Virus record (IMG/VR): IMGVR_UViG_3300022540_000360 | Coordinates: 1 to 25,112 of that record | DNA from: a virus | Length of the DNA stretch: 25,112 nucleotides | Direction: 5' to 3' (one strand) | Shown: positions 12,442 through 18,622 of the stretch, in pieces | Position numbering within the stretch: position 1 is the stretch's first letter | How the letters are laid out: every line of letters starts with the position of its first letter | Notes under the pieces: model-generated | The model's input: only the letters and a program-made list of their open reading frames with translations | What the model was told of the DNA's origin: nothing | The model's database searches: none | Made by a program: the position numbers and the translations under genes

Positions 12442-12978
12442 ATGTTAATAGGATTCACAGGGGAAATTGGAGCAGGAAAAAGCACTGCCGCAGAATGGCT
12501 TGTTTCTTACAGAGGATACAAACAAAAATCGTATGCTGAACCTTTGAAAAAAGCAGCATCTATTATGACAGGATTATCGATTGAACATTTCTACAACAAG
12601 GATCTGAAAGGAATATATGTTGAGTGGCTTGGTATGACTCCTCGAAGATTCCTTCAACTTCTTGGTACAGAATTTGCAAGGAGAATGATTCTGAAGGATT
12701 TTTGGATTACAAGGATGAGGAGAGAACTCTTATCTCCTGAATGGGATATCAGATGTGGATACAATATCGCTGTTGATGATGTTCGCTTTCAAAATGAAGT
12801 AGACCTGATTCATGAATTTGGTGGAAAGGTAATTCGCATTGATAATATGAACGCAGGAGAAGATGGAGATCATGAATCTGAAAAGATGGAAATTCTCACA
12901 GATGTTACTTTTGATAACAACGGGTCATTCGCTGCTTTACATGATCAAATCAGAGTTTATTTGGAAGAAATCTCATGA
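12442..12978 (+). CDS. Deoxynucleoside monophosphate kinase (T4 gp1-like)
   Basis: Phosphorylates dNMPs to dNDPs for phage DNA synthesis. The P-loop is at 7-15 (GEIGAGKST). Then come the gp1-like segments KQKSYAEPLKKAA (about 27-39) and RRFLQLLGTEFAR with an FWITRMRREL block, which match the substrate-lid region of the T4 gp1 family, and IAVDDVRFQNEVDLI as the strand with the D-D-V-R-F-x-N-E motif. Its 178 aa is slightly shorter than T4 gp1. The stop overlaps the start of the Rad50 N-half (ATGA). With ThyX in the same window it points to a self-contained thymidylate supply. Confidence 0.88.
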   Translation: MLIGFTGEIGAGKSTAAEWLVSYRGYKQKSYAEPLKKAASIMTGLSIEHFYNKDLKGIYVEWLGMTPRRFLQLLGTEFARRMILKDFWITRMRRELLSPEWDIRCGYNIAVDDVRFQNEVDLIHEFGGKVIRIDNMNAGEDGDHESEKMEILTDVTFDNNGSFAALHDQIRVYLEEIS

Positions 12979-14030
12979 CTATTACAGCCCTTGAACTAGT
13001 TTATTTTGAGGGACACGAAGGAACTCTACTAGAATTTGATCCTGGAGTTAATATAATCACAGGACTTTCAGGACATGGTAAGAGTTCTCTTGTGAGAGGA
13101 TTCAATTGGGTTCTTACAAATCAACCTATGGGAGAATCAATGATCTCCCATTTTGCAGGAGAAAATGATACAGTATCTTCCATTGAGTTCGAAGAAGGCT
13201 CATATATAGTTAGAACTCGTGGTAATAAAGAGAACAGCTATGTGGATTCTTCAAATGAAGATCCTTACAAAGCTTTGAGAGGCAAGGTTCCTGATTCTGT
13301 GTCTCTTATTTCCAATATGGATGACACAAATGTCCAAAGACAGAAAGACTTTTACTTCATGCTTAATGATAGTCCTGGGCAAGTGGCAAGGATGTTTAAC
13401 AAGGTGTCAGGACTTGATGAAATGGATTATGCTCAAACTGAGATCAATATCCGGTATAAGAAAAAGAAGAAAGAAATGGATGTACTTTCTTCAAGACATG
13501 GTGCTATTGAGGAAAAACTTTCTGATACTTCTTGGATTGTTGAAGCAGATGAGCGATACAGCATCATTGAAATGTATGAGAAGGAAGAAAAAGAACTCAT
13601 TGGTGAAATTGTATTCCTTGATAATGCTATAGCCTCAATTGAAGTAATCGAGGAGGAAATAGCAAGTCTCCTTGATCCTGGTATAATTGAAAGAATTGAC
13701 ACCATCTTTACAGTTGAAGAGGAAGTTATAGAAGTGGAGGAAGAAATAGATAAATTACAAAACCTCTTAGAATCCTCTTCACTGCTTGAAAATGAGATAA
13801 GGAATATCAGACTACCTGAAGAGGGAAGAATAGACGAGATAGAGGATGTGATACGTGAAATAGAAGAGATTGATGATTCTATTTCGAGAATAAATCTTCT
13901 AATTCAATATTGCGCTAACTATGAAGCTGATATAGTTGATGCTGAAGGAGAACTTATCATTCTTAAAAACAAATATAAAGATGTTCTCAGCACCTTTGAT
14001 ATTTGTCCTATTTGTGAGAGAAAATTATGA
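12975..14030 (+). CDS. Rad50/SbcC-like ATPase, N-terminal half ending at the zinc hook
   Basis: Residues 1-150 are the N-lobe of an SMC/Rad50 ATPase: ALELVYFEGHEGTLLEF strand, Walker A GLSGHGKS (30-37), and the Q-loop NVQRQKDFYFML. From about 155 to 340 the protein is a Glu/Lys/Ile-rich coiled coil. It ends with CPICERKL, where C344 and C347 form the Rad50 zinc-hook CxxC only four residues before the stop. No signature motif or Walker B is present; these are found in the separate gene at 15837-16454. This is therefore a naturally split Rad50. It overlaps both neighbours by 4 bases, and the nuclease partner follows directly. Confidence 0.88.
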   Translation: MTITALELVYFEGHEGTLLEFDPGVNIITGLSGHGKSSLVRGFNWVLTNQPMGESMISHFAGENDTVSSIEFEEGSYIVRTRGNKENSYVDSSNEDPYKALRGKVPDSVSLISNMDDTNVQRQKDFYFMLNDSPGQVARMFNKVSGLDEMDYAQTEINIRYKKKKKEMDVLSSRHGAIEEKLSDTSWIVEADERYSIIEMYEKEEKELIGEIVFLDNAIASIEVIEEEIASLLDPGIIERIDTIFTVEEEVIEVEEEIDKLQNLLESSSLLENEIRNIRLPEEGRIDEIEDVIREIEEIDDSISRINLLIQYCANYEADIVDAEGELIILKNKYKDVLSTFDICPICERKL

Positions 14031-14902
14031 AAATTGTAGCAACTGCTGACTGGCATATCAGGGCTAAGAATCCTAGAATTAGAAATGACGAATATGCCAT
14101 GACTCAATATCGTAAGATCAAATGGATTCTTGATCTCGCAGAGAAGAAGGGAGCAGATGTAGCAGTAGCGGGAGATATTTTTGATGCTCCTCGTTGTCCT
14201 TATTGGTTATTAGTCATGTATATTGATTTATTTAAAAGATTTCATAAAAAGATTTATGTTGTCCCTGGGCAACATGATCTTCATTTTCATAATCCTGATT
14301 TAGCAAACACTCCTTTGGGAGCTTTACTCTCTGCAAAAATCGTAGAGATTCCTAATAACAAGGGGGTGAGGGGGGTAGGATGGGAAGAAGAACTACCTGA
14401 AAAAGGTTCTCATGTTCTTCTATGGCATTTTCCAGTAACTCCAGAAGAACCTCCTTTCTTTATGGAGGATGCTGTATCAGCAGAAGATATGATGGATCAA
14501 CTTGAAAGCAAAGGGTATGGCTTGATAATAACTGGTGACTATCACGTTGCTCATTGTACTCTTTCTGAGCACTGCATCCTTGTCAATCCTGGCCCTATCA
14601 TGCGGTCATCAAAGGATAAAATCGATTATATTCCTAAAGTTTTCTTTTATGATAATGGAATGATCGAAGAATATGAAATCCCCATTGAAAAAGATGTATT
14701 TGATCTTGAGAAGTTGGAACAGGATGACAGAAAGGAATTCAGTGATGACTTAAAAGAACTTATCGAATCATTTAGTGAAGAAACAAAGTTTCTGAATTAT
14801 TGGGAAGTGGTTCAAAATGTAGCAAAGAAGGCAAAAACGAGTAAAGATGCAACTATAGTGCTTAAACAGGTGGAGGAGAGTTACAATGGAAAAGGATCTT
14901 GA
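14027..14902 (+). CDS. Mre11/SbcD-like nuclease (T4 gp47 family)
   Basis: Metallophosphoesterase subunit of the SbcCD/gp46-47 end-processing complex. Metal-binding motifs are D8-W-H10 (TADWH), GD at 49-50 (AGDIFD), GQHD at 81-84 where most relatives have GNHD, H134 (LLWHFP), GDYH at 170-173, and NPGP at 187-190. The N to Q change in the third motif is also met in other phage members, so it is not proof of inactivity. The C-terminal 75 residues are charged and helical, suitable for capping the Rad50 coiled coil. The ATG overlaps the Rad50 N-half stop. Confidence 0.92.
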   Translation: MKIVATADWHIRAKNPRIRNDEYAMTQYRKIKWILDLAEKKGADVAVAGDIFDAPRCPYWLLVMYIDLFKRFHKKIYVVPGQHDLHFHNPDLANTPLGALLSAKIVEIPNNKGVRGVGWEEELPEKGSHVLLWHFPVTPEEPPFFMEDAVSAEDMMDQLESKGYGLIITGDYHVAHCTLSEHCILVNPGPIMRSSKDKIDYIPKVFFYDNGMIEEYEIPIEKDVFDLEKLEQDDRKEFSDDLKELIESFSEETKFLNYWEVVQNVAKKAKTSKDATIVLKQVEESYNGKGS

Positions 14903-15137
14903 TTTACTTGAGGATATCAAAAAGAAAGTAGAGGATGATCAGAAACGGATTATCAGACTCCAAGGCAAACTTGATGGTGTTCTTGAATCCCTAAGTAATG
15001 AAGGGATGGATGGAAAAATAGATGCTACAAAAAGAATTAAGAAGTTGAATGGACTCAAAGACAAGTTGCTTGTAAAGCTTGAGGGATTAATTGAAGTATT
15101 CAAAGAGGATTATCCTGAACTGGTAGGAGAAGAATGA
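14886..15137 (+). CDS. Small coiled-coil protein within the split Rad50-Mre11 operon
   Basis: 83 aa with GGAGGAG six bases before the ATG; it overlaps the nuclease gene by 17 bases and the next gene by 4. The entire sequence is a heptad-like charged helix in two parts (IKKKVEDDQKRIIRLQGKL and KRIKKLNGLKDKLLVKLEGL) joined near SNEGMDG, forming a likely antiparallel hairpin. It has no cysteine. Its place between the two Rad50 halves suggests it may pair with the long coiled coil of the N-half, which the C-half is too short to match; this is inference. Confidence 0.75.
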   Translation: MEKDLDLLEDIKKKVEDDQKRIIRLQGKLDGVLESLSNEGMDGKIDATKRIKKLNGLKDKLLVKLEGLIEVFKEDYPELVGEE

Positions 15138-15349
15138 ATATAAAATGGGAGGTAAAATACCTTATTTGTTGTGGATGTATGAGTGTATATGAGGAAATAG
15201 AAGAATACACAGCATTGACAAAGCTTGGAGTATATATGAAGTTCCACAAAAAGCATGGAAAAGATCTCCCTTGTAGTTATACAGATAGATCGAATTTTGA
15301 ATCATTTATATCATTTTGTAATTTAGTTAGTTTTAAAACTTTCATATAA
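15134..15349 (+). CDS. Small Cys-containing hypothetical protein (71 aa)
   Basis: GGAG lies before the ATG, which overlaps the coiled-coil gene stop. Residues LICCGCMSVYEEIEEYTAL carry three Cys (C12, C13, C15); further H38/H41 and C47 could complete a zinc site, giving a C-C-H-C type small finger (HKKHGKDLPC). No family is recognised. Confidence 0.6.
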   Translation: MNIKWEVKYLICCGCMSVYEEIEEYTALTKLGVYMKFHKKHGKDLPCSYTDRSNFESFISFCNLVSFKTFI

Positions 15350-15365
15350 TTAATAGGAGAATAAA

Positions 15366-15566
15366 ATGGCAAGGGATGATGAGTTTGTAGAAATTGAAGG
15401 CACTATTTTGAGACAGACAGGAAATGCAATCCACTTTGATGATGGAAACATTACTGCATGGATTCCTAAGTCTCAGATTCAAGAGACTGACTTCAGTACA
15501 GAAAAAGATGAACTGGTAGAAATCACTATACCAGAATGGCTTGCTTTTGAGAAAGGGCTTATATGA
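15366..15566 (+). CDS. Small conserved phage protein (66 aa), beta-barrel-like
   Basis: AGGAG seven bases before the ATG. The pattern EGTILRQTGNAIHFDDG, then AWIPKSQI, then VEITIPEWLAFEKGLI is one I recognise from many small phage proteins near replication genes; the WIPKS and IPEWLAxxKGLI segments are the conserved parts. It is likely a compact five-strand fold. Its function is unknown. Confidence 0.75.
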   Translation: MARDDEFVEIEGTILRQTGNAIHFDDGNITAWIPKSQIQETDFSTEKDELVEITIPEWLAFEKGLI

Positions 15567-15859
15567 AAAAGAACTTATCCAATGATCAAGAAAAGTCTAA
15601 ATATTTTCAAGGGAAGACAATGAGCAGCAATGAAATAACAATTTCCATAGTATCAGTCTTAATTGCTTTAACTGTCTTCATAATATCTATTATTTACCAT
15701 CCTGACGTGCAGATAGAGGCAAACTACGATAAGCACACTAAATGCTTGAATGGGGTGTTATATTACAAAGGGTGGTGGGGTTCAGTTTCACCAGCGTTTA
15801 GACAGGACGGTAGTTTAATCACTTGTGAGGTGGAATATGATTCGAAAGAAAATAGATAA
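15563..15859 (+). CDS. Small single-pass membrane protein
   Basis: 98 aa from the ATG that overlaps the previous stop; an alternative ATG at 15620 has its own AAGGGAAG site, so a 79-aa form may be the main product. One hydrophobic segment, ITISIVSVLIALTVFIISII (about 25-44), is a clear transmembrane helix. The C-terminal half is polar with two Cys (CLNGVLYYKGWWG and ITCEVEY), perhaps disulfide-linked if outside the cytoplasm. Its end overlaps the start of the Rad50 C-half. Its placement inside a DNA-repair operon is odd; the function is unknown. Confidence 0.65.
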   Translation: MKKNLSNDQEKSKYFQGKTMSSNEITISIVSVLIALTVFIISIIYHPDVQIEANYDKHTKCLNGVLYYKGWWGSVSPAFRQDGSLITCEVEYDSKENR

Positions 15860-16454
15860 CGCCCTTGCAGAACGTAGAGTACTCTCAGTAGAGCACAAAG
15901 AAGTCGAGAAAGAAATGGAAATTGTTGATGACTCTTTGCGCTTCCATGATGAGGCTCGTATTATTATTCAAAAATCTGCACAAATCGTACAGAAGAATCT
16001 GGAAGAACATATCTCAGGCATTGTCAGCAAGGCATTGAGGATTGTTTTTCTTGATGAAGCCAAAGAATTTCACGTAGAATTCGTAACAAGGAGGAATGTG
16101 ACTGAGTGTGACCTGAAATTAGTTGAACATGGAAATCTCCTTGACCCTCTTGATTCATGTGGTTTTGGTGAAGCCGATGTATGCTCCTTTGCTCTTCGCG
16201 TTGCTTATTGGGCTTTAGGAACAACAAGGAATGCATTGATAGTTGATGAGCCTTTCAAATTTCTAGATGGAGATAGAATAAAAAGGGCATTTGAAATGGT
16301 TCAGGTATTGAGTGATGAATTGAATCTTCAAATGATAATTATTACTCATGAAAATGAAGCACAAGGGCATTATTCCAAAAGATTCCATGTTGTAAAGAAA
16401 GGAAAAGAATCCACAGTTATTTCTGAAAATGCAGAAAGATTTAAAATCAATTGA
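15837..16454 (+). CDS. Rad50/SbcC-like ATPase, C-terminal half
   Basis: The start ATG at 15837 follows GAGGTG (15827-15832) by four bases; a GTG at 15825 lies inside this site and is rejected. The 205-aa product begins with a short coiled coil (about 1-60), then the C-lobe: signature motif SCGFGEADVCSFALR (107-121), standing in for LSGGE, Walker B ALIVDEPFKFLD (133-144) and the H-loop IITHE (168-172). Walker A and the zinc hook are absent and are supplied by the gene at 12975-14030. The ascending coil is about 60 residues against about 185 in the N-half. The two halves should assemble with the nuclease into one complex. Confidence 0.88.
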   Translation: MIRKKIDNALAERRVLSVEHKEVEKEMEIVDDSLRFHDEARIIIQKSAQIVQKNLEEHISGIVSKALRIVFLDEAKEFHVEFVTRRNVTECDLKLVEHGNLLDPLDSCGFGEADVCSFALRVAYWALGTTRNALIVDEPFKFLDGDRIKRAFEMVQVLSDELNLQMIIITHENEAQGHYSKRFHVVKKGKESTVISENAERFKIN

Positions 16455-16456
16455 CT

Positions 16457-16499
16457 TATATAGGTTCATCTTCTTGATGATAATAGATGAACCTATATA
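16457..16499 (+). promoter_or_regulatory. 15-bp perfect hairpin abutting the ribosome site of the HNH gene
   Basis: TATATAGGTTCATCT (16457-16471) pairs perfectly with AGATGAACCTATATA (16485-16499) around a 13-base loop. The first base of the AGGAG ribosome site of the HNH gene (16499-16503) is the last base of the stem, so folding would place the site at the base of the helix and may limit translation. Hairpin control of homing-endonuclease translation is known from T4 I-TevI. No T run follows, which argues against a normal terminator. Confidence 0.6.
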
Positions 16500-16509
16500 G
16501 GAGAATATT

Positions 16510-17049
16510 ATGCCAGCTAAGTGTAGATGTGGTTGTAGAAAAGAAGTAAAGTGGAATAAACAAAAGAAGAGATGGAATACCCTGATTCATGGACATTGGT
16601 TCAGATACTACAATAAAACAAAAGCTCATTCTGAAAAAGTTTCTGCTAATAATAAGAAACGAGTATTAAGTGAGGAAACAAAGAAGAAGATTTCTAATTC
16701 CCTACAAGGGCATGTTAGATCTGAGGAATCGAAACGGAAACAATCCATCACTATGATTGACAGAGAGGTAGGAAGAAAAGAAAATAATAGCGCTTGGAAT
16801 GGAGGTATTTCTCCTTATAAGAATACAGGAGAATGGGTTAAATTAAGTAAAGAAATAAAGAAAAGAGATAACTATATATGCCAAGAATGTAGAAGTAAAA
16901 ATCTTCTAACAGTTCACCATATTGATTTTACCAAATCTAATCATAGTCCATTAAATCTTATAACATTGTGCAAGCAATGCCATGCAACTAAACATAAAGA
17001 ACATGGTGATTACAAAAGGAGTAAACCCAAACTAAGGAGGAATAAATGA
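16510..17049 (+). CDS. HNH homing-type endonuclease with NUMOD3 motifs
   Basis: Free-standing selfish nuclease. The N-terminus has CRCGC (5-9) followed by the usual IHGHW segment. NUMOD3 DNA-binding repeats lie at about 53-80 (LSEETKKKISNSLQGH, then RSEESKRKQS). The HNH domain lies at 115-160: C124/C127, H136/H137 (VHHIDF), N149, and C154/C157-H158 (TLCKQCH), giving a zinc-ribbon-stabilised beta-beta-alpha-metal site. The gene lies between the Rad50 C-half and ThyX; its last codons carry the AAGGAGG site of ThyX, so it is tightly inserted without breaking either neighbour. Confidence 0.92.
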   Translation: MPAKCRCGCRKEVKWNKQKKRWNTLIHGHWFRYYNKTKAHSEKVSANNKKRVLSEETKKKISNSLQGHVRSEESKRKQSITMIDREVGRKENNSAWNGGISPYKNTGEWVKLSKEIKKRDNYICQECRSKNLLTVHHIDFTKSNHSPLNLITLCKQCHATKHKEHGDYKRSKPKLRRNK

Positions 17050-17974: not shown

Positions 17975-18622
17975 ATGGATCCATATAAAGTACTTGGAAT
18001 AGAAAGAAATGCCTCTTTTTTAGAGATCAAAAAGGCATATCGTGAACGATCAAAAGAATGCCATCCTGACAGTCCTTCAGGAAGTGATCAAGCATTTACG
18101 GAATTGAACCTTGCCTACAGGGTTCTATCAGATGACAAAAAGCGCACACTATATGATGAGAGTGGAATCGTTGAGGATGAGGCTCCAGATCATATTCAGA
18201 ATATGGTCAAGGGCAGACTAGCTGAACTTGCTAGTAAATGGATTGACAATATGCTCCGTGGTGACAAGGTTCCCTTGAAAGAATTCATATTAAATGGACT
18301 CAATAACGGAGAGAACAGGCTTCAATTGGTCATAAAAGACATAAAAGAGATCATTGAAAATTTAGTTGACATTAGAAAGCGATTGACCCATAAAGATGGA
18401 AATTCACTGATTCATAATATCATCGATGAGAGAATCATAATAAATAAAAAGAGCATCAAGGCGAATGAAGAAGAATTAATTATACTTGACAAGCTTAAGG
18501 AGATCTTAGAAGACTATAACTTTGAAGAAGGAAAAGAGGAAGAAATGATTACCATGCTCAATTCTTCCTCTACAACTTCCACATTTAGAGGAGCAAGTTT
18601 CAATCGATATTACAAACTCTAA
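17975..18622 (+). CDS. J-domain (DnaJ-like) protein with unknown C-terminal region
   Basis: Residues 1-62 form a J domain: DPYKVLGIERNASFLEIKKAY, the HPD tripeptide at 30-32 that activates Hsp70 ATPase, and LAYRVLSDDKKRTLYDE. There is no Gly/Phe region and no DnaJ zinc domain. Residues 70-200 are mostly charged helix with coiled-coil character (EIIENLVDIRKRL, IKANEEELIILDKLKEIL). The C-terminus is Ser/Thr-rich. It probably recruits host DnaK to a phage substrate, as J proteins do; the substrate is unknown. GGAG precedes the ATG. Its stop codon touches the stop of the convergent endolysin gene. Confidence 0.85.
   Translation: MDPYKVLGIERNASFLEIKKAYRERSKECHPDSPSGSDQAFTELNLAYRVLSDDKKRTLYDESGIVEDEAPDHIQNMVKGRLAELASKWIDNMLRGDKVPLKEFILNGLNNGENRLQLVIKDIKEIIENLVDIRKRLTHKDGNSLIHNIIDERIIINKKSIKANEEELIILDKLKEILEDYNFEEGKEEEMITMLNSSSTTSTFRGASFNRYYKL

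Follow-up and report, generated by a model that had tools for sequence, protein, structure and literature searches.

Introduction

In the usual picture, Rad50 and SMC proteins each consist of one polypeptide folded into a hairpin, with an unbroken covalent link from the hook or hinge into either arm. The closest described systems are those of the Mre11-Rad50/SbcCD type (E. coli SbcCD, archaeal Mre11-Rad50 (MR), T4 gp46/47), and the role of gp46/47 in T4-like recombination-dependent replication is covered in one account (PMC3175470). The same account describes an Mre11/Rad50 fusion in Bacillus phage 0305phi8-36 (A7KV18), noting that one P-loop segment is missing. Here we analyse IMG/VR virus record IMGVR_UViG_3300022540_000360, taken whole (25,112 bases, possibly a fragment; hereafter the window), in which the two halves of a Rad50/SbcC ATPase lie in separate genes, accompanied by an Mre11/SbcD subunit and a small coiled-coil (CC) protein. 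We interpret this set, with a probability of roughly 0.8, as a multi-part Mre11-Rad50 complex that would process DNA ends and have the form proposed below.

The split Rad50 locus

The principal features are listed below (aa, amino acids; Walker B and H-loop residues are numbered from the alternative GTG start).

12975..14030, + strand: Rad50/SbcC N-half, 351 aa, with its stop 4 residues past the CxxC hook; AAA_23 1.8e-9, Rad50 3aux 5e-22 by profile
13062..13085, + strand: Walker A GLSGHGKS, residues 30-37; G30, G35 and K36 invariant in 31 homologues
13341..13343, + strand: Q-loop glutamine Q123, invariant in 31 homologues
13425..14003, + strand: helical arm, residues 151-343; model helices 147-184, 187-232, 235-276 and 284-341
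14004..14015, + strand: predicted zinc hook CPIC, residues 344-347; C344 invariant, second Cys in 28/31
14027..14902, + strand: Mre11/SbcD nuclease subunit, 291 aa; Metallophos 2e-9, alignment and motif counts
14886..15137, + strand: CC protein, 83 aa, helical hairpin (helices 2-38 and 43-75); conserved partner, no cysteine in the window copy
15837..16454, + strand: Rad50/SbcC C-half, 205 aa from ATG (209 from GTG at 15825), short coil plus C-lobe; phrog_15167 4e-18, Rad50 3qkr_B 1e-17 by profile
16155..16178, + strand: signature motif SCGFGEAD (family consensus xGGGxxD); G113 and G115 conserved
16230..16250, + strand: Walker B ALIVDE (LIVDEP); D141 and E142 invariant in 26 homologues
16347..16349, + strand: H-loop His175 (ITHE); His in 19/26

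Each chain holds half of an ABC ATPase site. The Walker A lysine K36 and the Q-loop glutamine Q123 are on the N-half (31/31), and the Walker B residues D141/E142 (26/26) and the signature glycine are on the C-half, so that neither chain alone has a whole catalytic site. The assignment of Walker A and Q-loop to an N lobe, and of signature, Walker B and H-loop to a C lobe, is that of Rad50/SbcC, and solved Rad50 heads are matched in sequence, for both halves by profiles made from relatives, and in fold. The predicted structure of the N-half matches Mre11-Rad50 structures; its second-best fold match is the phage fusion A7KV18. The N-half ends with the predicted hook, the four residues ERKL and the stop, and in all CxxC-bearing members its end lies 4 to 28 residues past the hook. 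To judge from the motif, this CxxC at the C-terminal end of the arm probably corresponds to the hook of Rad50. As no CxxC occurs in any C-half checked and the window CC is cysteine-free, the simplest source of the zinc ligands would be a second N-half.

The gene order is N-half, SbcD, CC, three small open reading frames (ORFs) and C-half. The start of SbcD overlaps the end of the N-half through ATGA, and that of CC overlaps the end of SbcD. The presence of a putative Mre11-type phosphoesterase gene beside those for Rad50 is as expected for an Mre11-Rad50 complex, and the metal-ligand positions of the family Mre11 are mostly conserved in an alignment of 32 sequences. The C-half most likely starts at the ATG at 15837, which has AGGTGG just upstream.

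An earlier note on this DNA had described an N-half with Walker A, Q-loop, coil and CPIC stopping four residues after the hook, and a separate C-half gene with signature, Walker B and H-loop; ORF and motif checks agree on both. It had also placed Mre11, a coiled-coil protein, two small proteins and a membrane protein between the halves. Mre11 and CC do belong to the conserved set, but the three small ORFs are an insert particular to this phage, because in the nearest relative (L004), which lacks them, the C-half starts 2 nucleotides (nt) past CC. The coils are unequal, as noted earlier, with an N arm of about 193 aa, rather than the 185 residues given, against a C coil of about 60 aa; they are thus not the matched coils of Rad50/SbcC.

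Two variations in the C-half may be recorded. Position 175 of the H-loop is Asp, Thr or Gln in 7/26 C-halves. In another contig (L010:8204-8839) the C-half is present as two ORFs, either because of a frameshift in sequencing or because the gene is split once more.

Conservation in phages and other records

A tblastn search with the pieces led to two annotated isolate phages, Bacillus phage vB_BboS-125 and Microcystis phage Mvi-JY20, where the same pieces are annotated as exonuclease, chromosome segregation protein, ATPase or hypothetical. An alignment of five N-half sequences used as query in IMG/VR gave 61 loci (the N-half alone found nothing), and a scan of a genome collection gave one useful locus, from Sutcliffiella. 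Loci were counted by profile scans of all ORFs after removal of redundancy, those with enough flank being considered usable. N-half, Mre11, CC and C-half are four separate ORFs in 28/28 usable loci, a recurrence which argues that the arrangement is not due to chance. A contig end truncates nine of the remaining ten loci, and in the tenth (L065) the parts are dispersed. The halves are therefore not a single, N-first polypeptide as in Rad50/SbcC, and no single-frame N-then-C relative was found among the family loci.

The halves co-occur even where the genes are scattered. For example, the actinophage Magritte has the C-half at 0.3 kb, the N-half at 94 kb and Mre11 at 120 kb; Tunturi_5 has the C-half at 19 kb, Mre11 at 125 kb and the N-half at 128 kb. 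A Jeotgalibacillus plasmid encodes an Mre11-N fusion at 374-376 kb and the C-half at 450 kb, and L065 has the N-half at 15 kb, the C-half at 73 kb, with a CC-like ORF just before it, and Mre11 at 74 kb. The window encodes one AAA_23 protein, with no second one in its 25 kb. Most IMG/VR records may be incomplete; in 19 larger related records, including the complete vB_BboS-125 and Mvi-JY20, no second AAA_23 protein was found above the cut-off. Since the sole AAA_23 protein of the family members among them is the N-half, these 19 records do not conceal a full-length Rad50.

These results bear out the suspicion in the earlier note that the halves are widespread, both in the 28 loci and in the plasmids described below. 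In all usable loci stand-alone C-halves accompany N-halves that nearly always end at the hook, the combination it had proposed to look for, and the full-length Rad50 which it had allowed for elsewhere did not turn up in the 19 records. It overlooked CC as a universal fourth part, the repeat array of the N arm and the permuted and Mre11-fused plasmid forms.

The N arm and the CC protein

The N arm, from the end of the lobe to the hook, is 193-199 aa long in most members. It is 144-148 aa in three, 238-244 aa in two, 298 aa in vB_BboS-125 and about 355 aa in Bacillus prophages. Over this range CC (77-94 aa) and the C coil (57-82 aa) keep near-constant lengths, together about 140 aa. Phage-type N arms contain an internal 47-aa repeat (z score 11.8, against a shuffle maximum of 4.5), and helix breaks in the N-half model, near 185, 233 and 280, are in step with it. 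The arms of E. coli SbcC, Sutcliffiella SbcC and T4 gp46 showed no such repeat. Plasmid lineages, including the permuted one, and jumbo-phage lineages show mixed arm periods other than 47 aa, and the repeat is therefore claimed for the phage-type split family only.

CC is modelled as a two-helix hairpin (mean predicted local distance difference test score, pLDDT, 82; predicted template modelling score, pTM, 0.43), and its gene lies directly before the C-half, at a distance of at most 20 nt, in 22/28 loci. Two origins for it were considered and dropped: homology to a solved protein, as nothing convincing was matched in the PDB, and duplication of the N arm or C coil, as no real profile similarity to either was found.

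Permuted and fused forms

A search of a plasmid database led to the Pseudomonas amygdali megaplasmid pMPPla107. In its 635-aa "AAA family ATPase" the C-half profile aligns with residues 40-213 and the N-half profile with residues 236-632, and a CPTC lies near the C-terminus. The same C-then-N order occurs in three more Pseudomonas plasmids and in Vibrio, Variovorax, Methylorubrum and Alteromonas, so that the eight proteobacterial large-plasmid loci examined all have a permuted chain with the hook at the C-terminus; full or partial matches to the pMPPla107 chain occur in 21 plasmid records. Chains of this kind, with the head termini joined and the ends left at the hook, are what would be expected of circular permutation by way of a split ancestor. 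In the permuted loci a short ORF with an FG motif lies directly upstream and an Mre11-like ORF (D) downstream. This order, CC-[C-N]-D, is a rotation of N-D-CC-C.

The Mre11-like partner of pMPPla107 (L079:7742-8650) lacks the histidine of its first motif (GDPLLGG) and, on this basis, may be catalytically dead. The Methylorubrum partner retains GDPHLG.

A second type of fusion is found in Firmicute plasmids of Geobacillus, Paenibacillus, Brevibacillus and Aneurinibacillus, in which Mre11 is fused to the N-half. The C-half is separate in all four, as is CC, by profile, in 3/4. Together with a separate C-half, such a fusion offers an explanation for the Mre11/Rad50 fusion of 0305phi8-36, of which protein A7KV18 alone was considered.

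In a tree of the joined N-lobe and C-lobe (386 columns; four outgroups, including E. coli SbcC, Sutcliffiella SbcC and T4 gp46), split, fused and permuted forms group apart from these three. Support is 100 for the family joined with the Sutcliffiella 520-aa outgroup and 38 for the family alone; permuted and fused forms are each monophyletic (100). The tree is compatible with one split followed by later fusions, which four outgroups and weak deep nodes do not prove.

Genomic context

The insert between CC and the C-half consists of the following ORFs.

15134..15349, + strand: small ORF, 71 aa, outside the conserved set and absent from the nearest relative
15366..15566, + strand: small ORF, 66 aa, phrog_8389 (unknown function)
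15563..15859, + strand: 98-aa ORF with one hydrophobic stretch

The neighbouring replication and recombination genes encode polymerase A, a clamp loader, a gp32-like single-stranded DNA-binding protein (SSB), RecA, a 5'-3' exonuclease, a ligase and ThyX. A single ORF at 51-2519 places a uracil-DNA glycosylase-like domain ahead of the family A DNA polymerase. At 17975-18622, the region behind a DnaJ domain weakly matches an Apea-like HEPN domain. Between the stop of the C-half and the HNH-like ORF at 16510, a near-perfect inverted repeat, TATATAGGTTCATC ... GATGAACCTATATA, was seen by eye (16455-16500); it could be a terminator-like or insertion-related hairpin.

Interpretation

In the proposed complex the N-half and C-half would join without a peptide bond into one Rad50 ABC-ATPase head. 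That they form one head is very likely, because permuted single-chain forms exist. As happens in ordinary SbcCD, ATP would be bound between two such heads, which would gate an Mre11 dimer. The N-half would supply a long arm presenting the CxxC at its C-terminus, and two N-halves could share a zinc ion, linking two complexes at the apex. The C-half would contribute only its coil of about 60 aa at the base of the arm, and CC, most likely a structural subunit packed on the N arm, would stand in for the coil strand that normally returns. For the phage the complex would serve, presumably as a nuclease, in DNA-end processing for recombination-dependent replication, beside RecA, the gp32-like SSB, polymerase, 5'-3' exonuclease and ligase. 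A T4-like mode of such replication fits the replication and recombination genes around the locus.

Several observations weigh against this reading or limit it. The N arm does not equal CC plus C coil in most members. The N-half model (pTM 0.38) is not trustworthy for the path of the arm and does not distinguish a kinked rod from a folded bundle. Two related members (L022 and L032) have an altered hook, CPIFDVPC, and Magritte has none, so dimerisation through the hook cannot be universal. The Mre11 motifs are unusual, with GQHD for GNHD in 23/32 and GDxH for GHxH in 25/32 sequences, the window SbcD having both. Finally, the upstream ORF of the permuted lineages is linked to CC only weakly (hhalign probability 33%).

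The main alternatives concern the arm. The N arm might fold largely on itself in helical units of about 47 aa, CC being an accessory or regulatory subunit at the head or apex, comparable to Nbs1 in place and not by homology. This differs from the preferred reading only in the roles of CC and arm, and it is a real possibility, although the odds are rather against it. The strong 47-aa periodicity, the helix breaks in step with it, a CC of constant size beside an arm of changing length and the lack of real profile likeness of CC to arm or C coil all suit it; yet with alternating hairpins the end at which the hook lies would depend on whether the number of units is odd or even, and the model fits a kinked rod as well as a bundle. 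A plain three-way cut of Rad50, in which CC and the short C coil lie end to end as the descending arm against the N arm, is unlikely, as the earlier note had already held in stating that the complex cannot be a simple cut version of Rad50. CC does adjoin the C-half upstream in gene-adjacent loci, and the shortest N arms (144-148 aa) about equal CC plus C coil (~141 aa), but most N arms measure 193-199 aa, and some reach 238-355 aa, beside a CC and C coil of unchanging length, the CC model is a hairpin and not one long helix, and the N arm repeat is absent from E. coli SbcC and T4 gp46. In most members, therefore, CC and C coil together cannot simply be equated with the absent return strand.

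More distant explanations fare worse. A Lamassu-like defence system in place of a replication and repair complex is very improbable: the N-half matches LmuB over nearly its full length (PDLC03859, 1e-17), but an Mre11 with mostly intact metal ligands occupies the place of the LmuA effector, LmuB is a single chain of about 650 aa (PMC10586767) and the locus sits among replication genes. The scattering of the genes, sometimes over long distances, might suggest that the halves work separately, each as a degenerate or independent ATPase-like protein; complementary site halves with invariant residues, their constant co-occurrence and the permuted single-chain fusions leave this at least as improbable. 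An assembly error, frameshift or interrupting element (intron, intein or homing gene) would accord with the HNH-like genes close by (16510-17049). It is rejected as scarcely credible, since the same split recurs across complete phages, complete plasmids and many independent contigs, the genes between the halves are those of Mre11 and CC and not mobile ones, and the N-half has a proper stop after the hook.

A possible history, offered tentatively and at somewhat short of even odds, is that Rad50 was opened once at the hook, CC was added in place of the return coil, the arm was built from variable units of about 47 aa, and in some plasmids the halves were afterwards fused again in permuted order. 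With equal reserve, it may be supposed that in this single-opening lineage the arm, lacking a covalent return strand, is free to change in length and to change or open at its apex.

If the preferred reading of a multi-part Mre11-Rad50 complex is true, a widespread natural hook-cut Rad50 with permuted chains would show that covalent continuity is dispensable, and would provide natural half-proteins for dissecting communication between arm and head. Phage and plasmid annotations such as "exonuclease", "ATPase", "ParA" and "hypothetical" would be accounted for as pieces of one machine.

Comparison with known systems

The split and permuted set of phages and large plasmids has apparently gone unrecognised. 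No description of a split, naturally split or permuted Rad50/SbcC was found in the literature searched, which lacks many subscription papers and preprints, and PADLOC and NCBIfam gave no better classification of the split proteins. In PHROGs, the N-half matches family 16465 (exonuclease) and the C-half family 15167 (ATPase), separate families whose names do not convey the link. Division of a large phage enzyme is also known from jumbo phages, in which DNA polymerase III alpha and subunits of RNA polymerase are split (PMC7824862), although these are other enzymes and no counterpart of the permuted fusion was seen in the available part of that source. Lamassu LmuB resembles the N-half as a small Rad50-like ATPase with a hook. 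It is, however, one chain with LmuA as effector (no match to LmuA was found among the four conserved proteins scanned), whereas here the halves are apart and Mre11 is the partner. The 0305phi8-36 fusion may be compared with the plasmid loci, in which Mre11 is joined to an N-half and the C-half is separate; the available part of its account (PMC3175470) describes no separate C-half, hook cut or CC. The closest likeness is to Mre11-Rad50/SbcCD itself, which shares the head motifs, the zinc hook, the Mre11 partner and the place among replication and recombination genes. It differs in having one Rad50 chain with equal up and down coils, whereas the split set has a cut at the hook, a CC protein, an N arm built of repeats and altered Mre11 motifs.

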